Source: Apostichopus japonicus (lineage: Eukaryota > Echinodermata > Holothuroidea > Aspidochirotida > Stichopodidae). From it: a DNA stretch of 64,000 bases. Below the pieces are notes generated by a model. That model was not told the origin of the DNA and searched no databases. It saw only the letters and a list, made by a program, of their open reading frames with translations. Location of the stretch: NCBI RefSeq assembly GCF_037975245.1, contig NC_092583.1, forward strand, positions 5,427,264 to 5,491,263. Direction: 5' to 3'. This document shows, one piece after another, positions 4,331 through 41,400 of this stretch (positions are counted from its first letter, which is position 1; each line of letters starts with the position of its first letter). The position numbers and the translations under genes are program-made.

Positions 4331-5490
4331 TTTCAGAGCACTCTTTGTGGAATTTTCACTTTCAAGGCAGTGTGCTTATATTTTAATTTAAAGCAAAATA
4401 GTTCCCAGGGTAATTGAAATTGAGACCACCAACTAAAACATTTGCACATCAGACTTATAACATGCAATTGAAAGCCTACTTTGCTATCCTTAGTTTCTGC
4501 TACACTTATTTTCTACCATAAAAAATTGTTTTATAGCGGAAACTACAGAAACTGTGGCGGAAACTAACATTGTCTGGCCTAATTTAATCATAAAAATGAT
4601 GAATTTACAACACTATATGGTAGTATACCGTAATTCTGCATGATCCCTAAATTTGCGAATCTATCCAATTTTGGCATAATCTAGAGATCTATCAAACTGC
4701 AAAACATTTAAGTTGGCTTAGCTAGTTAGTAGCCTAACCAAACTTAAACCAAACAGCAAAATCAGAGATTTTGTCATAAGGGTACCACTAGGTTTATTTA
4801 TCAGAACAATTGTATCATCAACTAATCGTACATGGTAGAGTAGGCCTAGGCCTATAGCCTAGGCCTAAGTTATAGTAAGGCTTCATAATTGACGTACAGT
4901 ACCTTCGTAATTGACGCACCTTCAATTATTACTAGCAACAATACAGCAGGCAACCTAAACTTTTTGCAGCAAAGCAGTGTTACATACTTCATGAGCTTGA
5001 ATTCCTTTCAGGTATATGCTGACAAAATATAGCTTTTAACACCCTCTCCCCTCCCCCTCCTCCCCCTCTACAGTTTTGCACATATTTTTGGCATTTGGAA
5101 ATCTCACTCCCTAAAAATAACCAAAATTACCTCAATATAATACCACTACTCTCGGACCTGACCTGTCTGAGCTTAGAGGCTCAGAGCATAGCAAACATCA
5201 TCCAGAGTCAATGGATGTATATATACTTGTTAACACAAAAGTTACAGAACACTTTCAACGAATGTGTCAATTTCGGGATATGAAAGAACTTGACACAGCA
5301 GATATTTTATGTTCAAAATCCACTCAATTGTACATTATGTAGGCACAGAACAATAAATACTTTGAAATCATTGGATTTCTGAGGAACTACACATACTAAA
5401 AAAGGCATACAGTTGAGTGATTTGGATATTTCCTTGATAGACATCGTGTGTCAATTATGAGACTACCCTGCTACTAGTAGCATGGACACT
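4331..5490. other. Gene-free stretch with GGCCTAGGCC-type palindromes
   Basis: No gene was recognised. Around 4842-4868 there is a palindromic cluster of taggcctagg/cctaggccta units that recurs at about 6015-6030, 6395-6412 and 17015-17035. A pyrimidine-rich tract lies at 5042-5070. Confidence 0.5.
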
Positions 5491-20430: not shown

Positions 20431-23400
20431 ATGGGTTCGTACAATCCTTTCCGTCTTATTTTAGTGTCATTGCTGTGTCTGATGATTGCAGTAGTCTTGT
20501 CAACTGTTAATAGTTCTGAAGACTTTTATGAATTACTTGGAATTGAGAGAGATGCAACAACAAAAGATATCAGGAGAGCATTCAAGAAGATAGCATTATC
20601 AGAACATCCAGACAAAAACCCAGTGAGTTGCACGTTTGTTTGCTATTGAGCATTGACAGCAGTAGACAATCTGTCTAGCAAATATTCTGTCTCTAATTTT
20701 ATTTTTCACTGTTTGGTCAAATATGTTAGCCATAAATAATTCATGATTCACAATATCACAAACAGTCTAGTGCTTTAAGCCTGAAGTTTCTATTGAATTT
20801 ACCACACACTTTTGGTGACATGAAAGTGTCTTTTGATATACTTCAGTCATGAAAGTCACACAAGAAAATTATGTTATCATATGTTAACTTCTAATGCAAC
20901 AATAAAAGTTTCTATTTAAATGATGTATGGGAGTAATCAGTGTATTAGCTCCAGCCATTGGGTTGGAGCTACATAAATCTCTTATTTACACTGACAAGCA
21001 TTCAGTAGCTTGAGTGAACTTCATAGTTGGCTTGTATGTTCACCATAGTCAGTGTCAGAACTCTAAATCTGTAGAGACCTGTCAAACAAAATTTCAGGTC
21101 AAAACTTGAAAATGATGTGTACAGTGACAGGTTTACAATTTTATAAACATGTGGCATGGAATCCCTAAGCTTGTTGACATTCTGGTAGCAACATACCCTG
21201 TAGGTGCAATCAGTTACATTATAAAGGTAAAAATAATACTTAAAGGTCATTTGGCTTTTCATTTCAGGATGACCCAAAAGCTCATGAGAAATTTGTAAAA
21301 ATAAATAGAGCCTATGAGGTACTGAAAGATGATGACCTGAGGAAAAAGTATGATCGGTTTGGTGAAGAAGGATTAAAGGAAGATGGCCAAGGACAGTGGA
21401 ATCGCTATGAGAGCTGGCAATTTTACAAAACAGAATTTGGTATGAATTTATTTACATGTAGCATTTATTGTAACCTCAACAGCTGACAGTTAACTTAAGC
21501 TGATGGGTAGCTTAACAAAGTCATTTGTGTTGCACCTTCACTGAAAGGCCCTAAGTTCCTTGGCTGAAGCTCACACTGAAAGAGAAGTGCAGCAACTTCT
21601 GCCTTTCTGGCTCTAGAAAGTTGCATTTATTAATGAAATGGAGTATTGCTGCACAATATTATTGACTTCTGGCAAATAGACACTGACTCTGACAGATGTT
21701 GAGTGGTTGTATTGTACAAGATGTTTACCACAAAGCACTAACACTGCTTTCTGAGTCCAGAGATTTATGGTGTTATACTAATCTGGATGGATAATAGAAC
21801 CTCTTACTAATTGCTGTAATATTATTACCATCATCAATAAATTTGGTTAAATCTTGGCTCTGCTTGCATTGCGAAAGTAAATTTTAATGTTTCATGCACT
21901 TGTTTGAAGTGACTGGAAGCATTTAATAAAACAAATTACTACCTTTTGCGTTCTCACATCTCACTATATTTGTCACTCTTTAGGTCTCTATGATGAAGAT
22001 CCTGAAGTTGTTACCCTCAGCAAAACAGACTTTGGTAAGTTCAAAACATTGAGTAATTCCAGCTGAGCACTTTTAAAGGAGTACTTGAAGTTCTTAGTAC
22101 TAGTATCTGAGTACAGCATTTACGAATCTTAGTACAGTTTACGTGGTACAAGTACAGGTGCTTTCTCAACCGAGTACCTTTCGAGTACAGTACTTTTGAT
22201 TTATTAAGTATACAAGAACCTTTGCTTAGTTATAACTGCTCACAGATGTCTTTCATACCAAATGATATAACTGTTGAATGTGATCTCAGATCTTGTTATT
22301 GTGTGCCAAATACAGAATGTCTCTTTCTGACATTGAATGACAAAGTGACAGTGGTTAACAACTTTCTGACCTTCACAGGGTTGTTAAACTTATAGTAATG
22401 CTGCAATCATGCTACCATTTGTTCTGAACGTTAGCAACATGAATGCATACTTAATCTTGGTTAATGCACTCGGCTACACCTATGGTACCTTACTTGGTAA
22501 TGCACTCGGCTACACCTATTGTATGATACTGTACTTGGTAGTGCACTTGGCTAGACCTATGGTACTGTACTTGGTAAATCACTTGGCTACACCTCTGATA
22601 CGGTACTTGGTTATGCAGTCAGCTATACCTATGAGCTATGATACTGTACTTGGTAGTGTACTCAGCTACACCTCTGATACTGTACTTGGTAGTGTACTCA
22701 GCTATACCTATGATACTGTACTTGGCAGTGCACTTGACTACACCTATGATACTGTACTTGGCAGTGCACTTGACTACACCTCTGATACTGTACTTGGTAG
22801 TGCACTTGGCTACACCTATGATACTGTACTTGGTAGTGCACTCAGCTACACCTATGATACTGTACTTGGTAGTGCACTCAGCTACACCTATGATACTGTA
22901 CTTGGTAGTGCACTTGGCTACACCTGTGATATCTTACTTGATTAATGCACTCGGCTACACCTATGATACTGTACTTGGTAGTGCACTTGGCTACACCTCT
23001 GATACTGTACTTGGTAGTGTACTCAGCTATACCTATGATACTGTACTTGGCAGTGCACTTGACTACACCTATGATACTGTACTTGGCAGTGCACTTGACT
23101 ACACCTCTGATACTGTACTTGGTAGTGCACTTGGCTACACCTATGATACTGTACTTGGTAGTGCACTCAGCTACACCTATGATACTGTACTTGGTAGTGC
23201 ACTCAGCTACACCTATGATACTGTACTTGGCAGTGCACTTGACTACACCTATGATACTGTACTTGGCAGTGCACTTGACTACACCTCTGATACTGTACTT
23301 GGTAGTGCACTTGGCTACACCTATGATACTGTACTTGGTAGTGTACTCAGCTACACCTATGATACTGTACTTGGTAGTGCACTTGGCTACACCTGTGATA

Positions 23401-26400
23401 TCTTACTTGATTAATGCACTCGGCTACACCTATGATACTGTACTTGGTAGTGCACTCAGCTATACCTATGATACTGTACTTGGCAGTGCACTTGACTACA
23501 CCTATGATACTGTACTTGGTAGTGTACTCAGCTACACCTATGATACTGTACTTGGTAGTGTACTCAGCTACACCTATGATACTGTACTTGGCAGTGCACT
23601 TGACTACACCTCTGATACTGTACTTGGTAGTGCACTTGGCTACACCTATGATACTGTACTTGGTAGTGTACTCAGCTACACCTATGATACTGTACTTGGC
23701 AGTGCACTCAGCTATACCTATGATACTGTACTTGGTAGTGCACTTGGCTACACCTGTGATACTGTACTTGGTAGTGTACTCAGCTACACCTATGATACTG
23801 TACTTGGTAGTGCACTTGGCTACACCTGTGATATCTTACTTGATTAATGCACTCGGCTACACCTATGATACTGTACTTGGTAGTGCACTCAGCTATACCT
23901 ATGATACTGTACTTGGTAGTGCACTTGGCTACACCTATGATACTGTACTTTGTAGTGTACTCAGCTACACCTATGATACTGTACTTGGTAGTGCACTTGG
24001 CTACACCTGTGATATCTTACTTGATTAATGCACTCGGCTACACCTATGATACTGTACTTGGTAGTGTACTCAGCTACACCTATGATACTGTACTTGGCAG
24101 TGCACTTGGCCACACCTGTGATATCTTACTTGATTAATGCACTCGGCTACACCTATGATACTGTACTTGGTAGTGCACTCAGCTATACCTATGATACTGT
24201 ACTTGGCAGTGCACTTGACTACACCTATGATATCTTACTTGATTAATGCACTCGGCTACACCTATGATACTGTACTTGGTAGTGCACTTGGCTACACCTC
24301 TGATACTGTACTTGGTAGTGCACTCAGCTACACCTATGATACTGTACTTGGCAGTGCACTTGACTACACCTATGATACTGTACTTGGCAGTGCACTTGAC
24401 TACACCTCTGATACTGTACTTGGTAGTGCACTTGGCTACACCTATGATACTGTACTTGGTAGTGTACTCAGCTACACCTATGATACTGTACTTGGTAGTG
24501 CACTTGGCTACACCTGTGATATCTTACTTGATTAATGCACTCGGCTACACCTATGATACTGTACTTGGTAGTGTACTCAGCTACACCTATGATACTGTAC
24601 TTGGTAGTGCACTTGGCTACACCTGTGATATCTTACTTGATTAATGCACTCGGCTACACCTATGATACTGTACTTGGTAGTGCACTCAGCTACACCTATG
24701 ATACTGTACTTGGTAGTGCACTCAGCTACACCTATGATACTGTACTTGGTAGTGCACTCCGCTACACCTATGATACTGTACTTGGTAGTGCACTCAGCTA
24801 CACCTATGATACTGTACTTGGCAATGCACTCAGCTATACCTATGATACTGTACTTGACAGTGCACTTGACTACACCTCTGATACTGTACTTGGTAGTGCA
24901 CTCAGCTACACCTATGATACTGTACTTGGTAGTGCACTCAGCTACACCTATGATACTGTACTTGGTAGTGCACTCAGCTACACCTATGATACTGTACTTG
25001 GTAGTGCACTCAGCTATACCTATGATACTGTTCTTGGCAGTGCACTTGACTACACCTATGATACTACTGGAGGAGAGACAGATGAATATATATAGAGTAT
25101 TACAATAGAATGTCAAAAGGATAAAAAACTTATATTGCTTCCTGTTGTAATATCAAATTTAAGAAAACCAAGTACTGTAAACCAAGCTCTAGTATGTACT
25201 TTATCATCTAATTAAAACTACAAAATGACGAGTACAAATACTCTCACATCCAAGTACTTTGCACTGTGAGTGAGTAATGAGTACTACTGTACAGTACTGA
25301 CTAATTCTAAGTTTTACAGTAGGATCTGTTCTTTCTATCTATTGAAGTTAGTATGGGGTTTGTTCATCTGACAATTCAAAACTGTTTATTTCATGCCAAC
25401 CTGTCATCCCTGGCTGTATAAATTAGTCACCAAATGTAGAATAATTTACTCCCTGACATCAGCCAAGAAAAACCTCACTTAAGATGAAATGTACATCCTA
25501 CTGTAGGTGTGTGTTTTGTAGTCAGCAAAATTAAGCATGGCATTTTTATCACAGAAATGTACCTTTTTTTTATGTATGATGTATTTTAGTTCTTTTCAGC
25601 AAAGTATGCAGTGCATAATTTTTTTAGTTATTGTTTGTTATGTTGTTGTTTATGTTGTTTATGTTTGTTTGTTTGTTATTGAACAACTACAAGGAATTCC
25701 ATTATCTCTCACATTTACAGAACAATCTGTTTTTGGAGAAGATATTTGGCTAGTCAACTTTTATTCACCAAGATGTCATCATTGCCATGACTTAGCTCCA
25801 ACAGTAAGACAGTTTTACTTTATTTTAGCTAAATCTGGTGTTATTGCATTTCATATTGATCTTATATTGATACCATTATTGCCTGATACTGGTAGATGTG
25901 ATATTAATGCATTTGTTCATCTCATATTGATGCTTTTACCATTCTGAACAGTAAGACAGTTTTAATTTATTTGAGCTAAATCTGATATTATTGTATTAAT
26001 ATTGATCTTATATTGATACCATTATTGCCTGATACTGGTAGATGTGATATTAATGCATTTGTTCATCTCATATTGATGCTTTTACCATTCTGATAATGAA
26101 ACACTTATTGTGATCTGATCTTGATGCGTTATTGATCTGATAGCGATGTATTTATTAATGTGTTATTAATACATATATACTTCTTATGTTGATGCATTTA
26201 CTGTTATGATAATGATACATTTATTGTGATCTGATCGTGATGCGTTATTGATCTGATAGCGATGTATTTATTAATGTGTTATTAATACATATATTCTTCA
26301 TATATTGATGCATTTATTGTTCTTATAATGATACATTTATTGACTATGTGTCTGCTGTGCACAGTGACTAACATCAATTGTGACACAATTAATCTTACAG

Positions 26401-29400
26401 TGTCTTTGTATTTCAATACAATGCTATTAGGTTTGCAATAAGTAATGCCTTGTTTTATGATAATTGTCATGAAATTTCACCATGTTTGTACCTATACAAA
26501 TATATTTAGAAAGGATTTGAACTACAAGCAGGTGTGTTTCTGATGGATGAATAACTAATCTCTTTGGTTCTTGTTTTTAGTGGAGGGAGTTTGCCAAAGA
26601 GATGGAAGGAGTGATTCGCATTGGTGCTGTCAACTGTTGGGATGATAGACCTCTATGCACACAGCAGGGAGTCCAAAGGTTTCCTTCTCTCATACAGTAT
26701 CCGAGTGTATGTATAAATCAAACATAGCAACTTGTGGGAGGTTTATGAGACCAGTTATCATTAAGAGATGATTATTGATTTATTCCATGCTTATTCTCTG
26801 TAAAGTATAAATATAAATATTTAAAAACATAAAACTACATGTATTAACACCAAACTACCACATGCAGTGTATGGAGGGGAAAAGGGCAGAAAACTAACAA
26901 AAGTAATTTGCAGAACCGCTATCCGTAATTAAATGAACTCTATGAATTTGAACAGGGCGGGACTCGCTCCCTAAAACAGTCTCAAAGACCCTTCCCTAGA
27001 CAAAAAAGGACACATATAAGGCTGTGCATGACTGCTAGTAGTACTCCTGTTTCCAATATATGCAATTCTAAGATCCTAGGTAACTGTTCCGAATGAACTA
27101 AGTTGAAATATAATGTGGCAATTTGGGTGGTAGAATGAGAAAGAAGGGCATTGACTGGAGGGGCTGGTCATAGAGGGCGCACAATGTTCAAAGGTTACCA
27201 GTTCATTTTAGGCACGGTAGATCAAGAGTGCTAAGGTTGTGGGGAGACAGGTAAGCGAGGAGCGAAGTAAATGTTTGTAGTTGGTATTGATGTTTTGATC
27301 TGTCATTGAATAACTAGTTATAAGATTTTACACTAAAAATAATTAGGCAAGGTTGGTGCAGTCTTCCATGAGGACAGTTGTCATAAAAGTTGTGATTATT
27401 TCATTGAAATCTAGATTAGATCCAATTGCTAGGTTTACTACATAGTCCTTGCATGTAATAATAGGTATTGTAGGCAAGTCTAATTACCCTCTATAGACCA
27501 CATAAAACTGAGTCAAAATACAACATGCTAACCACTGCAGTTACCTTTGGGATCTTGTTAATGTTCTTGTTTTAAAAGTTTGACAGGGATCCAAACCTTT
27601 CACTTGCAAGCATTTCATTTCTAAGTGTACCTTCTATTTGCAGAGAGAGCATTACAATGGTGCAAGAAATTTAAAGGATCTTGTTCGTCATGCTTTGAGA
27701 CAAGTTAAAGCAACTGTGCACTCCATTTGGACAGGTGTGTTGAAATCAGTTATATGCATTTCCGATGATATATTGATGATTAATTGCTAGATATGTGTCA
27801 TTTGCAAAGAATAATTTACACTATCACTATTTATCCAAGAGAATGCAAAATACAGGTAAGCTATGAATATTGTAAACAAGGGAACCATTTCAGGCTCTTC
27901 TAAATGATTCATGTTTGCAAAGTTTGTTGTGCTCTTGCCAAACAGTTTAATATTACAACTCCTTCAGTATTAAAAATAGCAAAGATACTGCTATTGAAAA
28001 GAACATGTAAGCTGTCATTCTATCAGTAAAGTAGATAAGCATGTTCTATCTAAGATGTATCATTTTGTATTTTGCAGGTAATTTTAAGGCTGTCCTATTA
28101 GATCCAGAGAAAAAGGATCAACCATGGGTAATATCCTACTGCACAGCAGAGAAAGGTGAGATAGATAATAAATATGTCTGAATACAAACCTGACTGGAAA
28201 TAAATATGTCTGAATACAAACGTGACTGGAAATAAATATGTCTGAATACAAACGTGACTGGAAATAAATATGTCTGAATACAAACGTGACTGGAAATAAA
28301 TATGTCTGAATACAAACGTGACTGGAAATAAATATGTCTGTATACAAACGTGACTGGAAATAAATACGTCTGAATTCAAACGTGACTGGAAATAAATATG
28401 TCTGAATACAAACGTGACTGGAAATAAATATGTCTGTATACAAACGTGACTGGAAATAAATACGTCTGAATACAAACGTGGCTGGAAATAAATATGTCTG
28501 AATTCAAACGTGACTGGAAATAAATATGTCTGAATACAAACGTATGAATGCAACTTGTATGTCTAGAACTCCTTTGGTTTCAAGAAATAACCCAATATGA
28601 AGTGCACGTTTGACAATTTTAGAAGTGAAGCACAACCAGCTAGGTTAATACTGAATACCAAATGTTGAGCATATACTCCAGCATATGGCATTATCCAGTT
28701 TGCTACATTGTCTTATGCACTTTGTTTTTATTCTGAACAGAGAGGGAGGGAGATTCAGTTGGCGAAAGGCTTGGTTGCTTAGATAGTGATGACACACTAA
28801 AATTGGCGGCAATTTTGGTAAGTGTTTAGCAACGATAATGAGCTAAGTATTTGAAATTTGAACCTAAAACCTTGGCAAATATTCTTTGTGTGCATAATGA
28901 TTTAGTTCTTTCTATAACATTAAAATACTTATGATGAAAATTTATGATAAAAGAGGAACATTTGTTTGCATCCTGGTTAAATTTACATTTGCAAATCATT
29001 TTGTTTCATTATTTATTGTTAAATTCACATTCCCTTAATAGGATAAAATTGTAACGTATGCCGTCCAATGTCAAAACAATAAAGTGAAATTGAAGCCAAA
29101 CCTTGACAAATTTTCTTTGTGTACGTAATGATTTAGTTCTTTCCATAACAGTTACTATCCATGTAATTTGAAATACTATATGTTGCCTTACTTTTGACAG
29201 AATAAAGCTGTTCATGTTGGCAGTGTTGACTGCATAGCTTCAAAAACCCTTTGTGAGAAACTGAAGATTGAAGAGAGCACTATTATGTACTACCCATCAG
29301 GAAGTAAACTACAAAGCAAGCAAAAACAGGTAACATTATTACATGTGACATTCTACTTATAGTATAGTGTGATAAACAACAATAACATCATTAATACATG

Positions 29401-32400
29401 ACATTCTACTTATGGTAGTGTATAATAAACAACATTACTTCACTAATGTATTTTTTGCCAATTTCTGGAAATGTCAATATTTGATATGTATCTGTCATTG
29501 GTAATTTCAGTGGGTAAATGTTTGTTTGACAGTTGTAGTTTATTTAGTTTAGCATGTTTGATGAAACCATATTTAAATAATATGGTTTATATTGCATGTA
29601 GTTAATCTCTATTTCTTCAATGCCTAGTGATTTGTTTTAAACTATGATTTTAGATGCTGGAGTTTGATGAATCCAAGCAGATAGCCAAAGAAGTGCTAAG
29701 ACTGTTACCAGCTCTTACAACCCTCACAACTGAACAGCTACAGGTTTGTTTCAATTTAATTGAAAGCTTCTATCTTGTCTGATTTATTTTTACCTTGTGT
29801 TATGGTATGTATTAAGTCATAATCACCCTAGCAGTGATTTGTGAATCAGTCCATTGTTTAGTAAACCATAATCACCCTAGCAGGGATTTGTAAATCGGTC
29901 CGTATTTTAGTAAACCATAATCACCCTAGCAGTGATTTGTGAATCGGTCTGTATTTTAGTAAACCATAATCACCCTAGCAGTGATTTGTGAATCGGTCTG
30001 TATTTTAGTAAGCCATAATCACCCTAGCAGTGATTTGTGAATCAGTCTGTATTTTAGTAAGCCATAATCACCCTAGCAGTGATTTGTGAATCAGTCCATT
30101 GTTTAGTAAACCATAATCACCCTAGCAGGGATTTGTAAATCGGTCCGTATTTTAGTAAACCATAATCACCCTAGCAGTGATTTGTGAATCGGTCTGTATT
30201 TTAGTAAGCCATAATCACCCTAGCAGTGATTTGTGAATCAGTCTGTATTTTAGTAAACCGTAATCACCCTAGCAGTGATTTATGAATCAGTCCGTATGTT
30301 AGAAAGTCATAATCAATCAAGTCTATGTTTGGTAAAATACTCAGTACTGATTTTTGATGAAATTTTTCCTTCTTTCTTAGTTTTTATCTTTTATGGATTC
30401 TTACATTGCATTGTTATTATATGGTAAGTGTTTGAGATCATATGGCACAATTGTTTCCCTTCCAATATATCGTGAATATACTTTAGATTGGGTACAGCAC
30501 ATCAAAATATGTTTTAGTTTAGCCTTCACATCTAGCAAGTGGTTTTATTCGTCAAAGCTTATTTGAATTGCATGTCATTTATGTAAATGTGAAAGATACA
30601 GAATTTTCCACTTTCGAGAATTTAGCACTGGATTTCATCAATTCCTGTACTGATACATGTTTTTATGTGTTTGTGTGGGGGCAAGTTACTCATGATTACT
30701 TTCTCTTAAATTTATGCACAATAGTTTATTTCATGGTGAAACGTTTTTGTCTGTCTTTCATTGATCAAAAATGGTATATCCTAAAATATTTGAACGTCAG
30801 CCTTCAGTGTGGCTGGTAAATCATAAAGAAAAAAGTGTTAATAAAAACAAGAATTGCTGAACATTTTGAGCTGAGTAGTCTTAATAAGCCACCTTTAGTT
30901 GGCAATCTTGCTTTGCAATTTATTGATGAATTCAGCAAGTTAAGATATGGAAACAGTTTAATTGCTGTCATTTGCTTCCAAAGTTACCAAAGTGAGGCTG
31001 TTCTTCTCTCCTTTCCCATTTGAAGGCAATGATTAGAGCATGTTTAATACTCTCAGAAATATATTTTTCTTTTAATAAATGTATCAAGGTGATGGGCAGT
31101 ACCCTTTGTTCTATGTACCAAGTATTAGTTAACACGTATGAACATTACTATCTTTTGTAACTCCCCATTACTCAACAGATGAAGAATATAAGCATGAAGA
31201 TGATTCAGTGTTTGTAATTTGGCTGTAACAGGAGGTTTTGTTTGTTAATTATGTATGCTGATTAATACCCCATTACAGGGCTCCAATTAAAGATTGAGAA
31301 GGCAAGGGTAACTTGTTAGGGCAAGTTAGAAGTTACCTTGGATTTTAATGAAATGACAAGGCACCGTAGCAAGTTTTCAACTTTCCAAATGACACAATGA
31401 TTTTCTTAAAAATTGAAAGAGCACCGTGTTAGAGGCAAAAGGAATCAATGGGATGTTGAAGGCATGTGTGTGTTTATAGTATATATGTGTAGCTATTGTT
31501 TATACAATGAAAAGTTGGTATTAGTTAGGCTCAGTTGGAACTTGATATGCATTAGATACAGGTAGATGTTAATGATAAACAATGAGTTATTTGGAAAGAA
31601 GAATGCAGTGTTATTAGGCTTACAGTTTTTTGTATGCTGTCTATAACTTACAAGAACATCCCCTTTTCTACAAATTTTGTGTCTGTGAATAATGTGAACT
31701 AGAGGGATTTGCTATGTTTTCTTTGTATCCTTCATCCTTTCTACGTTTTCTTTCTATAGCTTGCCAGAGAAAATTTAAAGAAGAAAGATCCAGCTCAGCG
31801 CCCTTTAGTTGTCTACTTTATCACAGGATCATCAGAACCAGATAATGAGTTACGAAAACTACCCAAACTTGTTCCCCAGTTCAAGGTATGTTATTTCTCT
31901 GGCTCAAACCAGCATGACAGCATAAACAGTAGAAAATAACATATCTTTTTGTTAGATACAACCTCTACAGAACTGCTTATTTGCAAACCTTAATTGTTCA
32001 TATCAGTTTTGTGTTTCTTGTTTGTGGGTTTGATGATGAGTCAGCTACTTCTGTAAGACAGAGTCACTAATGATACTCAGCTACTTCTGTAAGACAGAGT
32101 CACTAATGATACTCAGCTACTTCTGTAAGACAGAGTCACTAATGATACTCAGCTACTTCTGTAAGACAGAGTCACTAATGATACTCAGCTACTTCTGTAA
32201 GACAGAGTCACTAATGATACTCAGCTACTTCTGTTAGACAGAGTCACTAATGATACTCAGCTACTTCTGTAAGACAGAGTCACTAATGATACTCAGCTAC
32301 TTCTGTAAGACAGAGTCACTAATGATACTCAGCTACTTCTGTAAGACAGAGTCACTAATGATACTCAGCTACTTCTGTAAGACAGAGTCACTAATGATAC

Positions 32401-35400
32401 TCAGCTACTTCTGTAAGACAGAGTCACTAATGATACTCAGCTACTTCTGTAAGACAGAGTCACTAATGATACTCAGCTACTTCTGTAAGACAGAGTCACT
32501 AATGATACTCAGCTACTTCTGTAAGACAGAGTCACTAATGATACTCAGCTACTTCTGTAAGACAGAGTCACTAATGATATCCAGCTACTTCTGTAAGACA
32601 GAGTCACTAATGATACTCAGCTACTTCTGTAAGACAGAGTCACTAATGATACTCAGCTACTTCTGTCAGACAGAGTCACTAATGATACTCAGCTACTTCT
32701 GTCAGACAGAGTCACTAATGATACTCAGCTACTTCTGTAAGACAGAGTCACTAATGATACTCAGCTACTTCTGTAAGACAGAGTCACTAATGATACTCAG
32801 CTACTTCTGTAAGACAGAGTCACTAATGATACTCAGCTACTTCTGTAAGACAGAGTCACTAATGATACTCAGCTACTTCTGTAAGACAGAGTCACTAATG
32901 ATACTCAGCTACTTCTGCTTGCAACTTATTTCTTTTGTCTTCTTTTATAGGTTGCATTGTTTAATTGCAGCACAGATGCTACCCTCTGTGATCAACTCTA
33001 TTTAACTAATCACCTCCCTAAGGTGACCTTCTTCCGTGTCGGAGGGGAGCATGAGTTTCATCACGGAAGAAGCTTTGCAGCAGATATTGCAGCATTTGCA
33101 AGGGAAAGTTTCCAGTCCCTTGTCCATGTTTTGGACCCATCTAGTTTCCCGAGTCCTGTTACGGATGGTCAAAACATCTGGCTTGTAGACTTCTTCTCCC
33201 CACATTGCTCCCCTTGTCTCCAACTGATTCCGGAAATTCACAAAGTCGCCAAGCAGCTGGGGGACGTTGAATTTGGAACTGTTGATTGTACAATACACAA
33301 GGAGATATGTAGTCAACAGCAAATTAGATCGTATCCAACAATGATTCTGTTCAACAATAGTAAACCACACCATTCAGTGGGCTATATGCATTCATCTCAG
33401 ATAATGGAATTTATTGAGGTAAGCATCTGTATCAGAGCTTGATCTATGTGTGGTTTCTGCTATATGCATTCATCTCAGATAATGGAATATATTGAGGTAA
33501 GCATCTGTATCAGAGCTTGAGCTATGTGTGGTTTCTGCTATATGCATTCATCTCAGATAATGGAATTTATTGAGGTAAGCATCTGTATCAGAGATTGAGC
33601 TATGTGTGGTTTCTGCTATATGCATTCATCTCAGATAATGGAATTTATTGAGGTAAGCATCTGTATCAGAGCTTGAGCTATGTGTGGTTTCTGCTATATG
33701 CATTCATCTCAGATAATGGAATATATTGAGGTAAGCATCTGTATCAGAGCTTGAGCTATGTGTGGTTTCTGCTATATGCATTCATCTCAGATAATGGAAT
33801 ATATTGAGGTAAGCATCTGTATCAGAGCTTGAGCTATGTGTGGTTTCTGCTATATGCATTCATCTCAGATAATGGAATTTATTGAGGTAAGCATCTGTAT
33901 CAGAGCTTGAGCTATGTGTGGTTTCTGCTATATGCATTCATCTCAGATAATGGAATATATTGAGGTAAGCATCTGTATCAGAGCTTGATCTATGTGTGGT
34001 TTCTGCTATATGCATTCATCTCAGATAATGGAATATATTGAGGTAAGCATCTGTATCAGAGCTTGAGCTATGTGTGGTTTCTGCTATATGCATTCATCTC
34101 AGATAATGGAATATATTGAGGTAAGCATCTGTATCAGAGCTTGAGCTATGTGTGGTTTCTGCTATATGCATTCATCTCAGATAATGGAATATATTGAGGT
34201 AAGCATCTGTATCAGAGCTTGAGCTATGTGTGGTTTCTGCTATATGCATTCATCTCAGATAATGGAATTTATTGAGGTAAGCATCTGTATCAGAGCTTGA
34301 TCTATGTGTGGTTTCTGCTATATGCATTCATCTCAGATAATGGAATATATTGAGGTAAGCATCTGTATCAGAGCTTGAGCTATGTGTGGTTTCTGCTATA
34401 TGCATTCATCTCAGATAATGGAATATATTGAGGTAAGCATCTGTATCAGAGCTTGATCTATGTGTGGTTTCTGCTATATGCATTCATCACAGATAGTGGA
34501 ATTTATTGAGGTAAGCATCTGTATCAGAGCTTGAGCTATGTGTGGTTTCTGCTATATGCATTCATCTCAGATAGTGGAATTTATTGAGGTAAGCATCTGT
34601 ATCAGAGCTTGAGCTATGTGTGGTTTCTGCTATATGCATTCATCTCAGATAATGGAATATATTGAGGTAAGCATCTGTATCAGAGCTTGATCTATGTGTG
34701 GTTTCTGCTATATGCATTCATATCAGATAATGGAATATATTGAGGTAAGCATCTGTATCAGAGCTTGAGCTATGTGTGGTTTCTGCTATATGCATTCATC
34801 TCAGATAGTGGAATTTATTGAGGTAAGCATCTGTATCAGAGCTTGAGCTATGTGTGGTTTCTGCTATATGCATTCATCTCAGATAATGGAATATATTGAG
34901 GTAAGCATCTGTATCAGAGCTTGATCTATGTGTGGTTTCTGCTATATGCATTCATCTCAGATAATGGAATATATTGAGGTAAGCATCTGTATCAGACCTT
35001 GAGCTATGTGTGGTTTCTGCTATATGCATTCATCTCAGATAATGGAATATATTGAGGTAAGCATCTGTATCAGAGCTTGAGCTATGTGTGGTTTCTGCTA
35101 TATGCATTCATCTCAGATAATGGAATATATTGAGGTAAGCATCTGTATCAGAGCTTGATCTATGTGTGGTTTCTGCTATATGCATTCATCTCAGATAATG
35201 GAATATATTGAGGTAAGCATCTGTATCAGAGCTTGAGCTATGTGTGGTTTCTGCTATATGCATTCATCTCAGATAATGGAATATATTGAGGTAAGCATCT
35301 GTATCAGAGCTTGATCTATGTGTGGTTTCTGCTATATGCATTCATCACAGATAGTGGAATTTATTGAGGTAAGCATCTGTATCAGAGCTTGAGCTATGTG

Positions 35401-38400
35401 TGGTTTCTGCTATATGCATTCATCTCAGATAGTGGAATTTATTGAGGTAAGCATCTGTATCAGCGCTTGAGCTATGTGTGGTTTCTGCTATATGCATTCA
35501 TCTCAGATAATGGAATATATTGAGGTAAGCATCTGTATCAGAGCTTGATCTATGTGTGGTTTCTGCTATATGCATTCATCTCAGATAATGGAATATATTG
35601 AGGTAAGCATCTGTATCAGAGCTTGAGCTATGTGTGGTTTCTGCTTTATGCATTCATCTCAGATAATGGAATTTATTGAGGTAAGCATCTGTATCAGAGC
35701 TTGAGCTATGTGTGGTTTCTGCTATATGCATTCATCACAGATAATGGAATATATTGAGGTAAGCATCTGTATCAGAGCTTGATCTATGTGTGGTTTCTGC
35801 TATATGCATTCATCTCAGATAATGGAATATATTGAGGTAAGCATCTGTATCAGAGCTTGAGCTATGTGTGGTTTCTGCTTTATGCATTCATCTCAGATAA
35901 TGGAATATATTGAGGTAAGCATCTGTATCAGAGCTTGAGCTATGTGTGGTTTCTGCTTTATGCATTCATCTCAGATAATGGAATATATTGAGGTAAGCAT
36001 CTGTATCAGAGCTTGAGCTATGTGTTCTTTCCTCATGGTACATAGATGACCTGTCCACTATTTAAAGTGTCCTGATAATTTCATAGACAAATCACATTAC
36101 TATGTACACAGTGGCATTGAAATGTATTTAAGAGCAATTAATGGGATTTTGTGTTTTAAATTAATTAAAATCTAATAATATGAGTTCACAGTTTCTTTGA
36201 ATGTTATCCCATGACATTTGATGTGTAGTAGAAGCAGTGTCTGCTATTTATTTTATATGTTTGTGGTTTAATCTTTCAGGAGGCTACAGCAGCGATATCA
36301 ATATTTGCAACATTTCATCTCTGAATCTATTTTCTCAGTTGGGTGAACCTACTAGAATCATCACACTATCAAATCCTTGAACTTTCAACTGTTCATGGAT
36401 TTCCAAAATTTTTACGTTTTGTAGATAAGCAGCTTGTTATTGTTTTTGAAGGCCCTACTTCTCCTAGATCATAAGATTTCATCTTTTATGAAATAAGATT
36501 ATGCAAGATATCTTTATATTAAATTTTGTGATGCCAGATAATGGTTGTCTTGCTATAATTTTCCCATACTTTTGATAGAGTGTAAGCAAGAAATGAATGT
36601 GTAATGTTCCTCTTTGTTTATCTCGTTGTTGATGGTAATTTGGTAACTTTGCATGTTCCCTGCAGTGTATAGTTCATGTGTTTCATGTAAGTTGATATAT
36701 CAATCAAATGATTTCATTTTCTTGCAGGATATTTTAAACCCTAAGGTGGTCACTCTAGATTCAGACCTCTTCACTACACTTATTGTCCAACGATCTAAGG
36801 ATGAGCTGTGGTTGGTAGATTTTTTTGCCCCATGGTGTGGACCTTGTCAGCAGTTAGCTCCAGAGTGGCGGCGAGTGGCCAAGGTATGTCGCACTGTAAA
36901 TTAAAATGAGTAATGATGCTGTTGCCTTTCTTGTACCATATAGCGGAAGGCATAAGTAGTTTGATATAAGTTGAGAAAATATGAGAAAAGGTCGGACAGT
37001 CTGGTTGTGCAGTCCATAAGCGTCAGTAGCACTACAGTGCTGCTTAGAACTGTCTCCAATATGATTCTCTACTCATTTTAGCAAATGCATATGAGGCATC
37101 CTTCAGACATCTCATTTAGTTATAAACATGTGTACAAATGTACATAATGAAGGTTTCACTGACTGAATCTTTTTTTATTTTGATATGGTTGGTTCTTTCC
37201 ATAAGGACTAAAATCTGAAGATAAAGTCCTTTATGTTCATTATGCATTGGTAAAGGTGCTTGTCCTTACTAGTATGGATTATTAATTTTGTTGCAACAGG
37301 TAATATTTTATATTGTGAAATGAAAAACATTGTACTAGCACTTTCCTGCAAGCTTTGTTACATTTCATTGGTTTCCTTTTAGAGGTTAAATGGTACTGCT
37401 CGTCTTGGTTCTGTTGACTGTGTTGAACATCAGCAGCTTTGCAGCAGTCAGTCTGTTAGTGGATATCCTACAATAAGGGCATATCCTGTTGGAAAAACTG
37501 GATCTTCCATGTATAGGTAAGTGTCTATTGTAACAGTCTGCATGTTCTTTCCATTTAGACATGTGCAATCACCACCCACCAGTTGGCATGGTAACTGCTA
37601 GCAAAGAGTCATGTGCTTGATATCCTCTGTGTTTATATGGGTTACATTGTATGGTATAGAGGATTGCTCACTACCTCCAACAGTACATGTTCCAATATCA
37701 TAGTTTAAGAAAATAATCTTGTTCTATCTATATATATATTTCTTTTACTCATTTCCCTCATCCATCTTCCAACATGGCTTTACGTGGCTCTGTGTTTGCC
37801 AGCACACATTTCAGACTTATATTAAGATATATCCCAAGACATTATATATAAATTATCATTGAATTTGGCACTTTCCTGTGATCTCATTTCTGATGGAATG
37901 CCACCATTACAGCACTTATAACGGTTGGTTCCGTAACGTTCAATCTTTGGTCGGCTGGGCGTATCAATTGCTTCCATCAAGTGTGACAATCATTACCAAG
38001 CAGAATTTCCGAGACAAAGTGTTAAGAAGTGAAGATCCCTGGGTCGTTGATTTCTATGCGCCGTGGTGTGGTCCCTGCCAAGCATATATGCCTAACTTTG
38101 AAGAAATAGCAAAGGTAAGAATTATCAAGGAATACATGGGTCGTTGATTTCTATGCGCCGTGGTGTGGTCCCTGCCAAGCATGCATGCCTAACTTTGAAG
38201 AATTAGCAAAGGTAAGAATTATCAAGGAATACATGGGTCGTTGATTTCTATGCGCCGTGGTGTGGTCCCTGCCAAGCATACATGCCTAACTTTGAAGAAA
38301 TAGCAGAGGTAAGAATTATCAAGGAATACACAATAGCTGCTGTACTTTGGCTGTTTATACCATAATACAACACTTTATCTACTGAAAAGCTTGCATGTCT

Positions 38401-41400
38401 TTTACCAAATAAGTGTTAAAGGTTTAAACTAATAGCCATGGTTTTGTTTGGTTGTTTTATGTGGTTTTGAGATGTGCCTGTTGCATTAGTAAATGTTACC
38501 AAATAAGTGTTAAAGGCTTAAACTAATAGCCATGGTTTTGTTTGGTAGTTTTATGTGGTTTTGAGATGTGCCTGTTGCATTAGTAAATGTTACCAAATAA
38601 GTGTTAAAGGCTTAAACTAATATCCATGGTTTTGTTTGGTAGTTTTATGTGGTTTTGAGATGTGCCTGTTGCATTAGTAAATGTTACCAAATAAGTGTTA
38701 AAGGCTTAAACTAATATCCATGGTTTTGTTTGGTAGTTTAATGTGGTTTTGAGATGTGCCTGTTGCATTAGTAAATGTTACCAAATAAGTGTTAAAGGCT
38801 TAAACTAATAGCCATGGTTTTGTTTGGTAGTTTAATGTGGTTTTGAGATGTGCCTGTTGCATTAGTAAATGTTACCAAATAAGTGTTAAAGGCTTAAACT
38901 AATAGCCATGGTTTTGTTTGGTAGTTTAATGTGGTTTTGAGATGTGCCTGTTGCATTAGTAAATGTTACCAAACAAGTGTTAAAGGTTTAAACTAATAGC
39001 CATGGTTTTGTTTGGTAGTTTAATGTGGTTTTGAGATGTGCCTGTTGCATTAGTAAATGTTACCAAACAAGTGTTAAAGGCTTAAACTAATAGCCATGGT
39101 TTTGTTTGGTAGTTTAATGTGGTTTTGAGATGTGCCTGTTGCATTAGTAAATGTTACCAAACAAGTGTTAAAGGTTTAAACTAATAGCCATGGTTTTGTT
39201 TGGTAGTTTAATGTGGTTTTGAGATGTGCCTGTTGCATTAGTAAATGTTACCAAATAAGTGTTAAAGGCTTAAACTAATATCCATGGTTTTGTTTGGTAG
39301 TTTAATGTGGTTTTGAGATGTGCCTGTTGCATTAGTAAATGTTACCAAATAAGTGTTAAAGGCTTAAACTAATATCCATGGTTTTGTTTGGTAGTTTTAT
39401 GTGGTTTTGAGATGTGCCTGTTGCATTAGTAAATGTTACCAAATAAGTGTTAAAGGCTTAAACTAATATCCATGGTTTTGTTTGGTAGTTTAATGTGGTT
39501 TTGAGATGTGCCTGTTGCATTAGTAAATGTTACCAAATAAGTGTTAAAGGCTTAAACTAATATCCATGGTTTTGTTTGGTAGTTTAATGTGGTTTTGAGA
39601 TGTGCCTGTTGCATTAGTAAATGTTACCAAATAAGTGTTAAAGGCTTAAACTAATAGCCATGGTTTTGTTTGGTAGTTTAATGTGGTTTTGAGATGTGCC
39701 TGTTGCATTAGTAAATGTTACCAAACAAGTGTTAAAGGCTTAAACTAATAGCCATGGTTTTGTTTGGTAGTTTAATGTGGTTTTGAGATGTGCCTGTTGC
39801 ATTAGTAAATGTTACCAAACAAGTGTTAAAGGTTTAAACTAATAGCCATGGTTTTGTTTGGTAGTTTAATGTGGTTTTGAGATGTGCCTGTTGCATTAGT
39901 AAATGTTACCAAATAAGTGTTAAAGGCTTAAACTAATATCCATGGTTTTGTTTGGTAGTTTAATGTGGTTTTGAGATGTGCCTGTTGCATTAGTAAATGT
40001 TACCAAACAAGTGTTAAAGGTTTAAACTAATAGCCATGGTTTTGTTTGGTAGTTTAATGTGGTTTTGAGATGTGCCTGTTGCATTAGTAAATGTTACCAA
40101 ATAAGTGTTAAAGGTTTAAACTAATATCCATGGTTTTGTTTGGTAGTTTAATGTGGTTTTGAGATGTGCCTGTTGCATTAGTTTGGCTTTTCATAGCAAC
40201 TTCTTTGTTTCCTTTTCCAATAGACTATGAAAGATCATGTCCGTGCTGGTAAGGTGGATTGTCAGGCTCATGCATCTATATGTCAACAAGCTAGTATTAC
40301 AGGATACCCATCAGTAAGGATATATAAAGGAACAACCAAAAAGGGATATTCTCAAGTAAGTTTGCCCTTGTCATCATTACTATGCTAAAGAGTATCTATG
40401 TAGAGATCTATGAAGAGTATCTAAAGAGTATACTCTGCTAAAGAGTATCAGTTGACATTGAACTTTTCTTGCTAACACTGTTTTGCTATAATCCATTGCT
40501 TGGGATGTGTGTCCTTTCATATAGTAAATTGCTAGAAAAATAGTGACGGGGAGGCTAAGATAAGATTATCATCCAAAAAACTCAGTCATTGTTGTTGCTT
40601 AGAAATGGGAACGAAATCCTTGTAAACATGAAAGGGAAAATAGTGAGGCTTGCATGAATGTTATTCAGGGTTTGTGTATCCAGTTTTAATAGTAAGTACA
40701 AGAACCTTGTTGTTTGTTAGAGGTCAAAGGTCAATTGAGGTCACCAGAGGTAAAAGTTTAGAAACCTTGCAAACATGACTGTTCCATGAGTTACACATGG
40801 ATGAATTTGGTATGTAAGACCAGCTTAGTGTTTACAAGAACCTTGTTTTTATTATGGAGATCATATGTCTGTTAAGGTCAAAGTAAGTCTAAGTTTGAAA
40901 ACCTAGTACACTGGTGAACTTCACTTAATCTCAATATTATGTCCCTGACTTGAGATATGGTTGCTATAGTGTAATATACATAATATAATACATAAGATTT
41001 ACTCATGCTAGTACAATACAACTTCCTATGTAACATGTAGGAGAAGAGACTCTGTAAATAATGTTAATGATTTGAAAAGAAAATACCATTTCAATCATTT
41101 TCATTTCAGAATTGGTATGGAGAAGGTGTCCAGAATATATATCCCAACTTTTTAATTCCTCATTTGAAGCAAAAATTTCCAAATAAATTACAAGAAGTAA
41201 GTAACATGTCTTAACATTTAATTTTGCTCAACAAATCATATTTTGAGTAGTAAGATTTCTATTATAAACATTATGTATTTTGTTCATTTGAGTTGAGATG
41301 TGACCTAAGTGCTCCAAATGTTCCTCTGTATGTTTCTATCTGACAGGATTGTCTTCTATGAAAGGATGATTACTTTGAAGTAACTTGGACAGATAGATAT

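Follow-up and report, generated by a model that had tools for sequence, protein, structure and literature searches.

Why a splice donor should be repeated dozens of times behind the exon that it serves, and how that exon can still be joined correctly, is the question raised by the gene DNAJC10 in the window analyzed here, a stretch of 64,000 nucleotides from the sea cucumber Apostichopus japonicus (contig NC_092583.1, positions 5,427,264 to 5,491,263). On the plus strand of this window an array of 34 units (33381-36025) runs across an exon end and its donor. Tandem Repeats Finder and an alignment of the units resolved it into 33 full 78-bp units and one unit of 71 bp with a period of exactly 78. 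Each unit begins with the 38 bases that close the exon, followed by the donor GTAAGC and 34 more intron bases, which makes 38 exonic and 40 intronic bases. Of the 34 units only the first marks the real boundary; the other 33 are decoys. The donor GAG|GTAAGC (GAGGTAAGC) is intact in all 34 units, 9 of the 78 columns are variable and indels are absent. This agrees with a preliminary description of the locus, which had claimed about 34 donor copies inside DNAJC10 at an exact 78-bp period, the same composition of the unit, few substitutions without net indel and about 33 decoy donors downstream of the real one. Tandem Repeats Finder scored the array at 5038, with 33.9 copies, 97% matches and 0% indels, which excludes a chance origin. 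The array is a mirage, as such repeated exon boundaries are called in lancelets, found here outside that group; it is real, striking and not unique.

Tandem arrays are prone to misassembly, but we consider an assembly artefact very improbable here, as the nine variable columns are irregularly spread over the units and comparable arrays with different units occur elsewhere in the genome. The variants of units 15-16 recur in units 26-27, with one extra in unit 27, and this recurrence points to a block duplication within the array. A genome search with a 300-base query over the array start returned 14 matches, all of them at the DNAJC10 locus, which is no proof of rarity since words of very high frequency are passed over by this search. 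We rejected the possibility that the array holds an open frame or encodes a hidden protein, as each of the six frames contains at least 34 stops. Moreover, no known RNA family matched window positions 32000-40500 at the gathering threshold.

The joined exon peptides match the DNAJC10 chain 5ayk of the PDB (E 4.3e-190), presumably the mouse protein, so that the gene had been named correctly. The exon in front of the array, approximately number 12, extends from 32951 to 33418 on the plus strand and ends at the donor GAG|GTAAGC. It was placed by alignment with the PDB protein; its start was deduced from an open frame and the acceptor TTTTATAG|GTTGC, since the query had the first residues out of frame. 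The array-bearing intron (33419-36727, plus strand, from the sequence and the PDB alignment) ends in TTTTCTTGCAG and is followed by the exon of the third CXXC motif, CGPC (36728-36883, plus strand, PDB alignment). Across the junction 33418|33419 to 36727|36728 the residues align to QILEFIE DLRNPSVV of the PDB protein (QILEFIEDLRNPSVV) with no insertion; the real donor is therefore the first one, 33418|33419, joined to 36728. Thus, the unit spans an exon-intron boundary of an exon confirmed by protein alignment. The authentic boundary is the first unit, which is continuous with the exon; it is followed by the other 33, and the acceptor at 36727 comes after all of them. In the exon frame (offset 2) every one of the 34 units carries one stop, the first being a TGA at +22 after the real donor. 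Splicing from any later donor would therefore yield a protein cut off ahead of the third CXXC, as had been pointed out on the basis of an in-frame TGA in each unit.

The same junction bears on a reading in which splicing proceeds through the repeats step by step or treats them as 18-nt micro-exons, or in which AG|GTAAG serves as a ratchet point. The unit consensus does offer TTCATCTCAG|ATAATGGAATATATTGAG|GTAAGC, an in-frame and stop-free stretch of 6 codons (18 nt, phase 0 at both ends). However, no convincing pyrimidine tract was seen by eye before the AG, the variable columns 16 and 17 immediately precede it and the PDB DNAJC10 protein is without extra residues at the junction. For recursive splicing, AG|GTAAG is present, and the preceding ATAATGGAATATATTG showed no pyrimidine tract by eye. 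We therefore regard this reading as highly unlikely. The peptide of the candidate micro-exon would read IMEYIE, and IMEFIE occurs in the real exon (window 33391-33418 and unit consensus).

Similar structures were described in lancelets, where minisatellite-like tandem duplications of exon/intron boundaries affect Adh3, BflGb6, BflGb9, TnC and PGBD5 (PMC3087553; PMC3902484). No interference of mirages with splicing is reported there (PMC3087553), and the Adh and TnC mirages are stated to yield no aberrant mRNAs (PMC3902484). As in the lancelet cases, the tandem units of the sea cucumber extend across an exon boundary and contain splice signals, the authentic copy lies at the exon, and both 5' and 3' boundaries can be affected. 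In contrast to those cases, they occur in an echinoderm, the DNAJC10 array has 34 copies compared with 3-6 in BflGb6, all of its donors are intact, and one gene holds two or more boundary arrays. Within the limited literature set that we searched, exon-boundary minisatellites were found in the lancelet papers only. A lancelet source for the DNA, which the mirage literature would have suggested, was rejected, because the mitochondrial COX1 reads sensibly with AAA=Asn, ATA=Ile, TGA=Trp and AGA=Ser and is followed by ND4L and COX2, a code and gene order that point to an echinoderm. Since mirages occur in an echinoderm as well as in lancelets, they either are ancient among deuterostomes or have arisen repeatedly. 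The route to new introns through tandemly duplicated AGGT segments shares the duplication of AG|GT, whereas the DNAJC10 array lengthens the intron that already follows its exon, and an additional intron position is not evident.

We conclude that the DNAJC10 array is probably a mirage-type minisatellite which is mainly tolerated because the first donor is used. A tandem duplication would have captured the last 38 exon bases together with the first 40 intron bases, and unequal exchange or slippage could later have raised the unit to 34 copies. Duplication across a donor would keep the upstream exon and its donor intact and place the extra copies in the intron. These would be spliced out provided that the 5'-most donor is used, joined by exon definition to the exon's own acceptor. 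Because the exon and its first donor stay intact and the copies are intronic, such a duplication should be harmless as long as the first donor is taken, and this harmlessness would explain the survival of such arrays. Both the use of the first donor and the harmlessness of the array are inferred. The first copy is continuous with a conserved exon that is joined to the next one without insertion relative to the PDB protein, which supports tolerance. So do two more donor-containing arrays in the same gene, the exon-like upstream flanks of 12 among the 19 motif arrays that were fetched, the arrays met in samples taken from the exon side, the lack of coding constraint on the exonic parts of the decoys and the lancelet reports of undisturbed splicing.

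DNAJC10 contains three arrays that include a donor, all on the plus strand. The second exon-end array (97 bp x 3, 38040-38330) has 75 exonic and 22 intronic bases per unit and lies at the exon of the fourth CXXC, with its donor AAG|GTAAGA at 38114|38115. Besides, Tandem Repeats Finder and exon mapping placed a 146 bp x 2 array at 25800-26093, which begins 4 nt before the donor ACA|GTAAGA (25803|25804). A further plus-strand array (32 bp x 11.8, 28167-28543) begins past the first 11 intron bases and leaves its donor at 28155|28156 unrepeated. About 15 donors of the gene were identified by eye. No acceptor-containing array was seen in DNAJC10, where the arrays were not each checked systematically. 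The gene is rich in minisatellites: an intronic array of 94 bp x 18.9 lies in the intron following the second exon-end array (38402-40182), and two arrays with 36-bp units were found at 22456-25065 (72 copies) and 32033-32917 (24.6 copies).

Similar arrays are spread over the genome. A triple AGGTAAG pattern with gaps of 61-91 gave 1294 + 915 matches compared with 665 + 705 for the backwards pattern, and CAGGTAAGT with gaps of 41-71 gave 43 + 62 compared with 8 + 41; these counts are overlapping matches and not arrays. The first 100 of the 2209 AGGTAAG matches represented 12 distinct places, 10 of which were fetched. For CAGGTAAGT, 100 of 105 matches fell into ten distinct places, and nine were fetched at once and the tenth (L097) later. 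The upstream flank resembled an exon end in 12 of the 19 fetched arrays (L005-L009, L011, L013-L015, L018, L019, L021) and was unlike one in seven (L010, L012, L016, L017, L020, L022, L023). Matches in Pfam or the PDB support four of the 12, namely to Aa_trans (3.6e-9), HMG-CoA synthase (6.7e-27), Kri1 (5e-28) and transportin-3 (3.3e-8). The Pfam search covered ten flank peptides, with L014 and L021 outside the searched set, and gave three matches at E < 0.001. L018 was labelled VPS39, L006 DAG kinase and L009 importin-13; of these labels only the last is backed, by the transportin-3 match, and the flank peptide of L018 had no match in the PDB. In L018, which is also L087 (C8:23173600-23174700), the first donor is GTAGGT and 8 of 11 later copies have GTAAGT, so that the presumed real donor is weaker than most decoys. 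L020 and L023 (C17, C23) are dispersed arrays of about 75 bp which carry CAGGTAAGT and share a similar upstream flank, possibly parts of a multicopy gene or mobile element.

Arrays were also sought from the exon side, with match ends used as a proxy for exact exon ends. Among the 70 myosin-head exon matches listed, on 55 stretches, three donors (L025, L050, L073) and one acceptor (L030) lay within arrays. In the latter, a myosin gene, the acceptor-side array (124 bp x 3, 554-925) repeats TCTTAG|GTTGT together with the exon start upstream of the exon. On the downstream side of the best 60 of 126 kinesin matches no donor end lay in an array; near misses were L116, whose array starts some 25 nt inside the intron, and L125, with an array near the donor. 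In total, arrays contained 3 of the 130 donor ends sampled and 1 of the 70 acceptor ends, and the excess of donors over acceptors was not significant. Exon-end arrays are thus recurrent in this genome, the recurrence expected of mirages. There are hints that they cluster by gene (DNAJC10 and one myosin gene), from numbers too small to claim more. The 12 arrays that seem to lie at exon ends, in different genes, suggest that there is enough material for a bulk study; the exon-anchored matches fall in few genes and leave the rate uncertain. DNAJC10 itself, with 34 equivalent strong donors of which the first alone gives full-length protein, is a natural experiment on the choice among identical 5' splice sites.

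Several observations weigh against simple tolerance. The three myosin donors in arrays belong by position to one gene (C4:23.97-24.00 Mb), with about 16 myosin clusters among the listed matches, and the prevalence of exon-end arrays is therefore uncertain. Moreover, the decoys are as strong as the real donor. U1 genes of this genome start with ATACTTACCTG in 3/3 copies within L162, and the array donor matches the complement of this 5' end at 9 of 11 positions. SRSF1 and hnRNP A1 can shift the choice between competing donors, and SRSF1 can favour the intron-proximal one (PMC5585400). Since the decoys are equally strong and SRSF1 can act in this way, exclusive use of the first donor is not guaranteed, and decoys may be used at a low, regulated level, their products being degraded. 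Finally, the decoy donors appear to have changed less than would be expected if they were neutral. In our primary test, an unmasked wrap-around alignment without thresholds, every copy except the first was scored for change in its donor 9-mer, and windows shifted around the unit served as reference. For the 217 decoys of 16 exon-end arrays (14 arrays fetched and two from the window) it found 15 distinct donor changes where 27.5 were expected (p=0.006) and 19 donor mismatches where 60.7 were expected (p=0.0004). As a side observation on U1, 42 matches lie on contig C20:29019462-29087219, many of them about 856 bases apart, and form a tandem cluster.

Such a deficit would fit a different reading, that selection keeps the decoys as sites for the U1 small nuclear ribonucleoprotein, to strengthen exon definition, to protect against premature polyadenylation within the intron (telescripting) or as a sink or dial that directs some transcripts to decay. 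Accordingly, eight arrays with the same motif and without an evident exon showed no effect (25 vs 24.8, p=0.59); seven of them had been classed before the test, and L097 was added on the strength of its kinship to L023 alone. The stretch of low change extends from -3 to +6 around the donor in the MAFFT version, and the same units are free of coding constraint. The exonic parts of the decoys in 15 arrays carry 9 synonymous, 35 non-synonymous and 3 stop changes (20/75/5% expected; six copies with more than 25% exonic mismatch left out). With no synonymous excess (p=0.61), coding constraint on the decoys, or a passage of all decoys through the first position, was rejected. In other animals intronic U1 contacts are reported to matter in some cases (PMC11289892; PMC10404622). 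The DNAJC10 array shares with telescripting and deep intronic U1 contacts a large number of intronic sequences that could base-pair with U1, whereas binding and protection are putative in DNAJC10.

Against this reading stands the way in which the arrays were found. Eleven of the 16 were detected through an intact motif, and these gave 6 changes vs 17.5 (p=0.0017). They are 11 of the 12 exon-looking motif arrays (L101, the same array as L008, was left out), and seven of them owe their exon status to an open frame and an acceptor seen by eye only. The five arrays found independently of the motif, from two genes only, gave 9 vs 10.0 (p=0.44). Without L091, a degenerate array with internal sub-repeats and partly decayed donors, they gave 2 vs 5.2 (p=0.07; mismatches p=0.03). 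Five non-exon arrays with a period of at least 70 also lean low, not significantly (7 vs 9.5, p=0.24). In DNAJC10 alone, 0 of 9 donor columns and 9 of the 69 others are variable, an array too uniform to tell.

The size of the effect also depended on the version of the test. Fixed-spacing units had 2/1035 mismatches in the donor vs 198/6328 elsewhere. Flank-anchored copies of 15 arrays had 12 changes in 135 columns, or 5 after one misaligned L089 copy was dropped. MAFFT alignment of the units without that copy gave 5 vs 28.3 (p=5e-5). A first control set gave 31 vs 29.3 (p=0.70). A contrast with controls over flanks of +-20 ranged from p 1.8e-5 to 0.02 depending on the controls chosen. With looser copy thresholds, the 135 donor columns had 11 (threshold 0.75) and 14 (0.66) changes, where 29.2 and 31.9 were expected; at 0.58, where chance places were counted as copies, the effect was gone (63 vs 62.6). 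Masking the donor in the wrap-around alignment gave 22 vs 28.5 (p=0.11). We took the unmasked form as primary because it treats all columns alike, a choice made after the results of the other versions were known; early versions had inflated the effect by omitting L091 and poorly matching copies.

We therefore regard conservation of the decoy donors beyond the rest of the unit as suggestive only, and as a weak sign that the decoys may not be neutral. Selection of the decoys as U1 sites seems to us rather unlikely. We give little credence to its broader form, in which the donors of exon-end arrays are individually selected while the exonic bases drift, and array length adjusts how exons are defined or transcripts completed in many genes including DNAJC10. 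The preliminary description had proposed that the array acts as a splice-site sink, a U1 platform or an expression dial. The anatomy and premature stop behind this proposal held, and decoy-donor conservation in the 16 arrays lends it partial support; the role itself is unproven, given the mirage class and p=0.44 in the motif-independent arrays. Tolerance of a mirage that is bypassed at its first donor thus remains the preferred explanation. Apart from these arrays, a second contig with COX1 sequence (C29:14745-31219) carries five COX1 pieces with TGA codons and represents either mitochondrial DNA copied into the nucleus or a mitochondrial contig that is broken.

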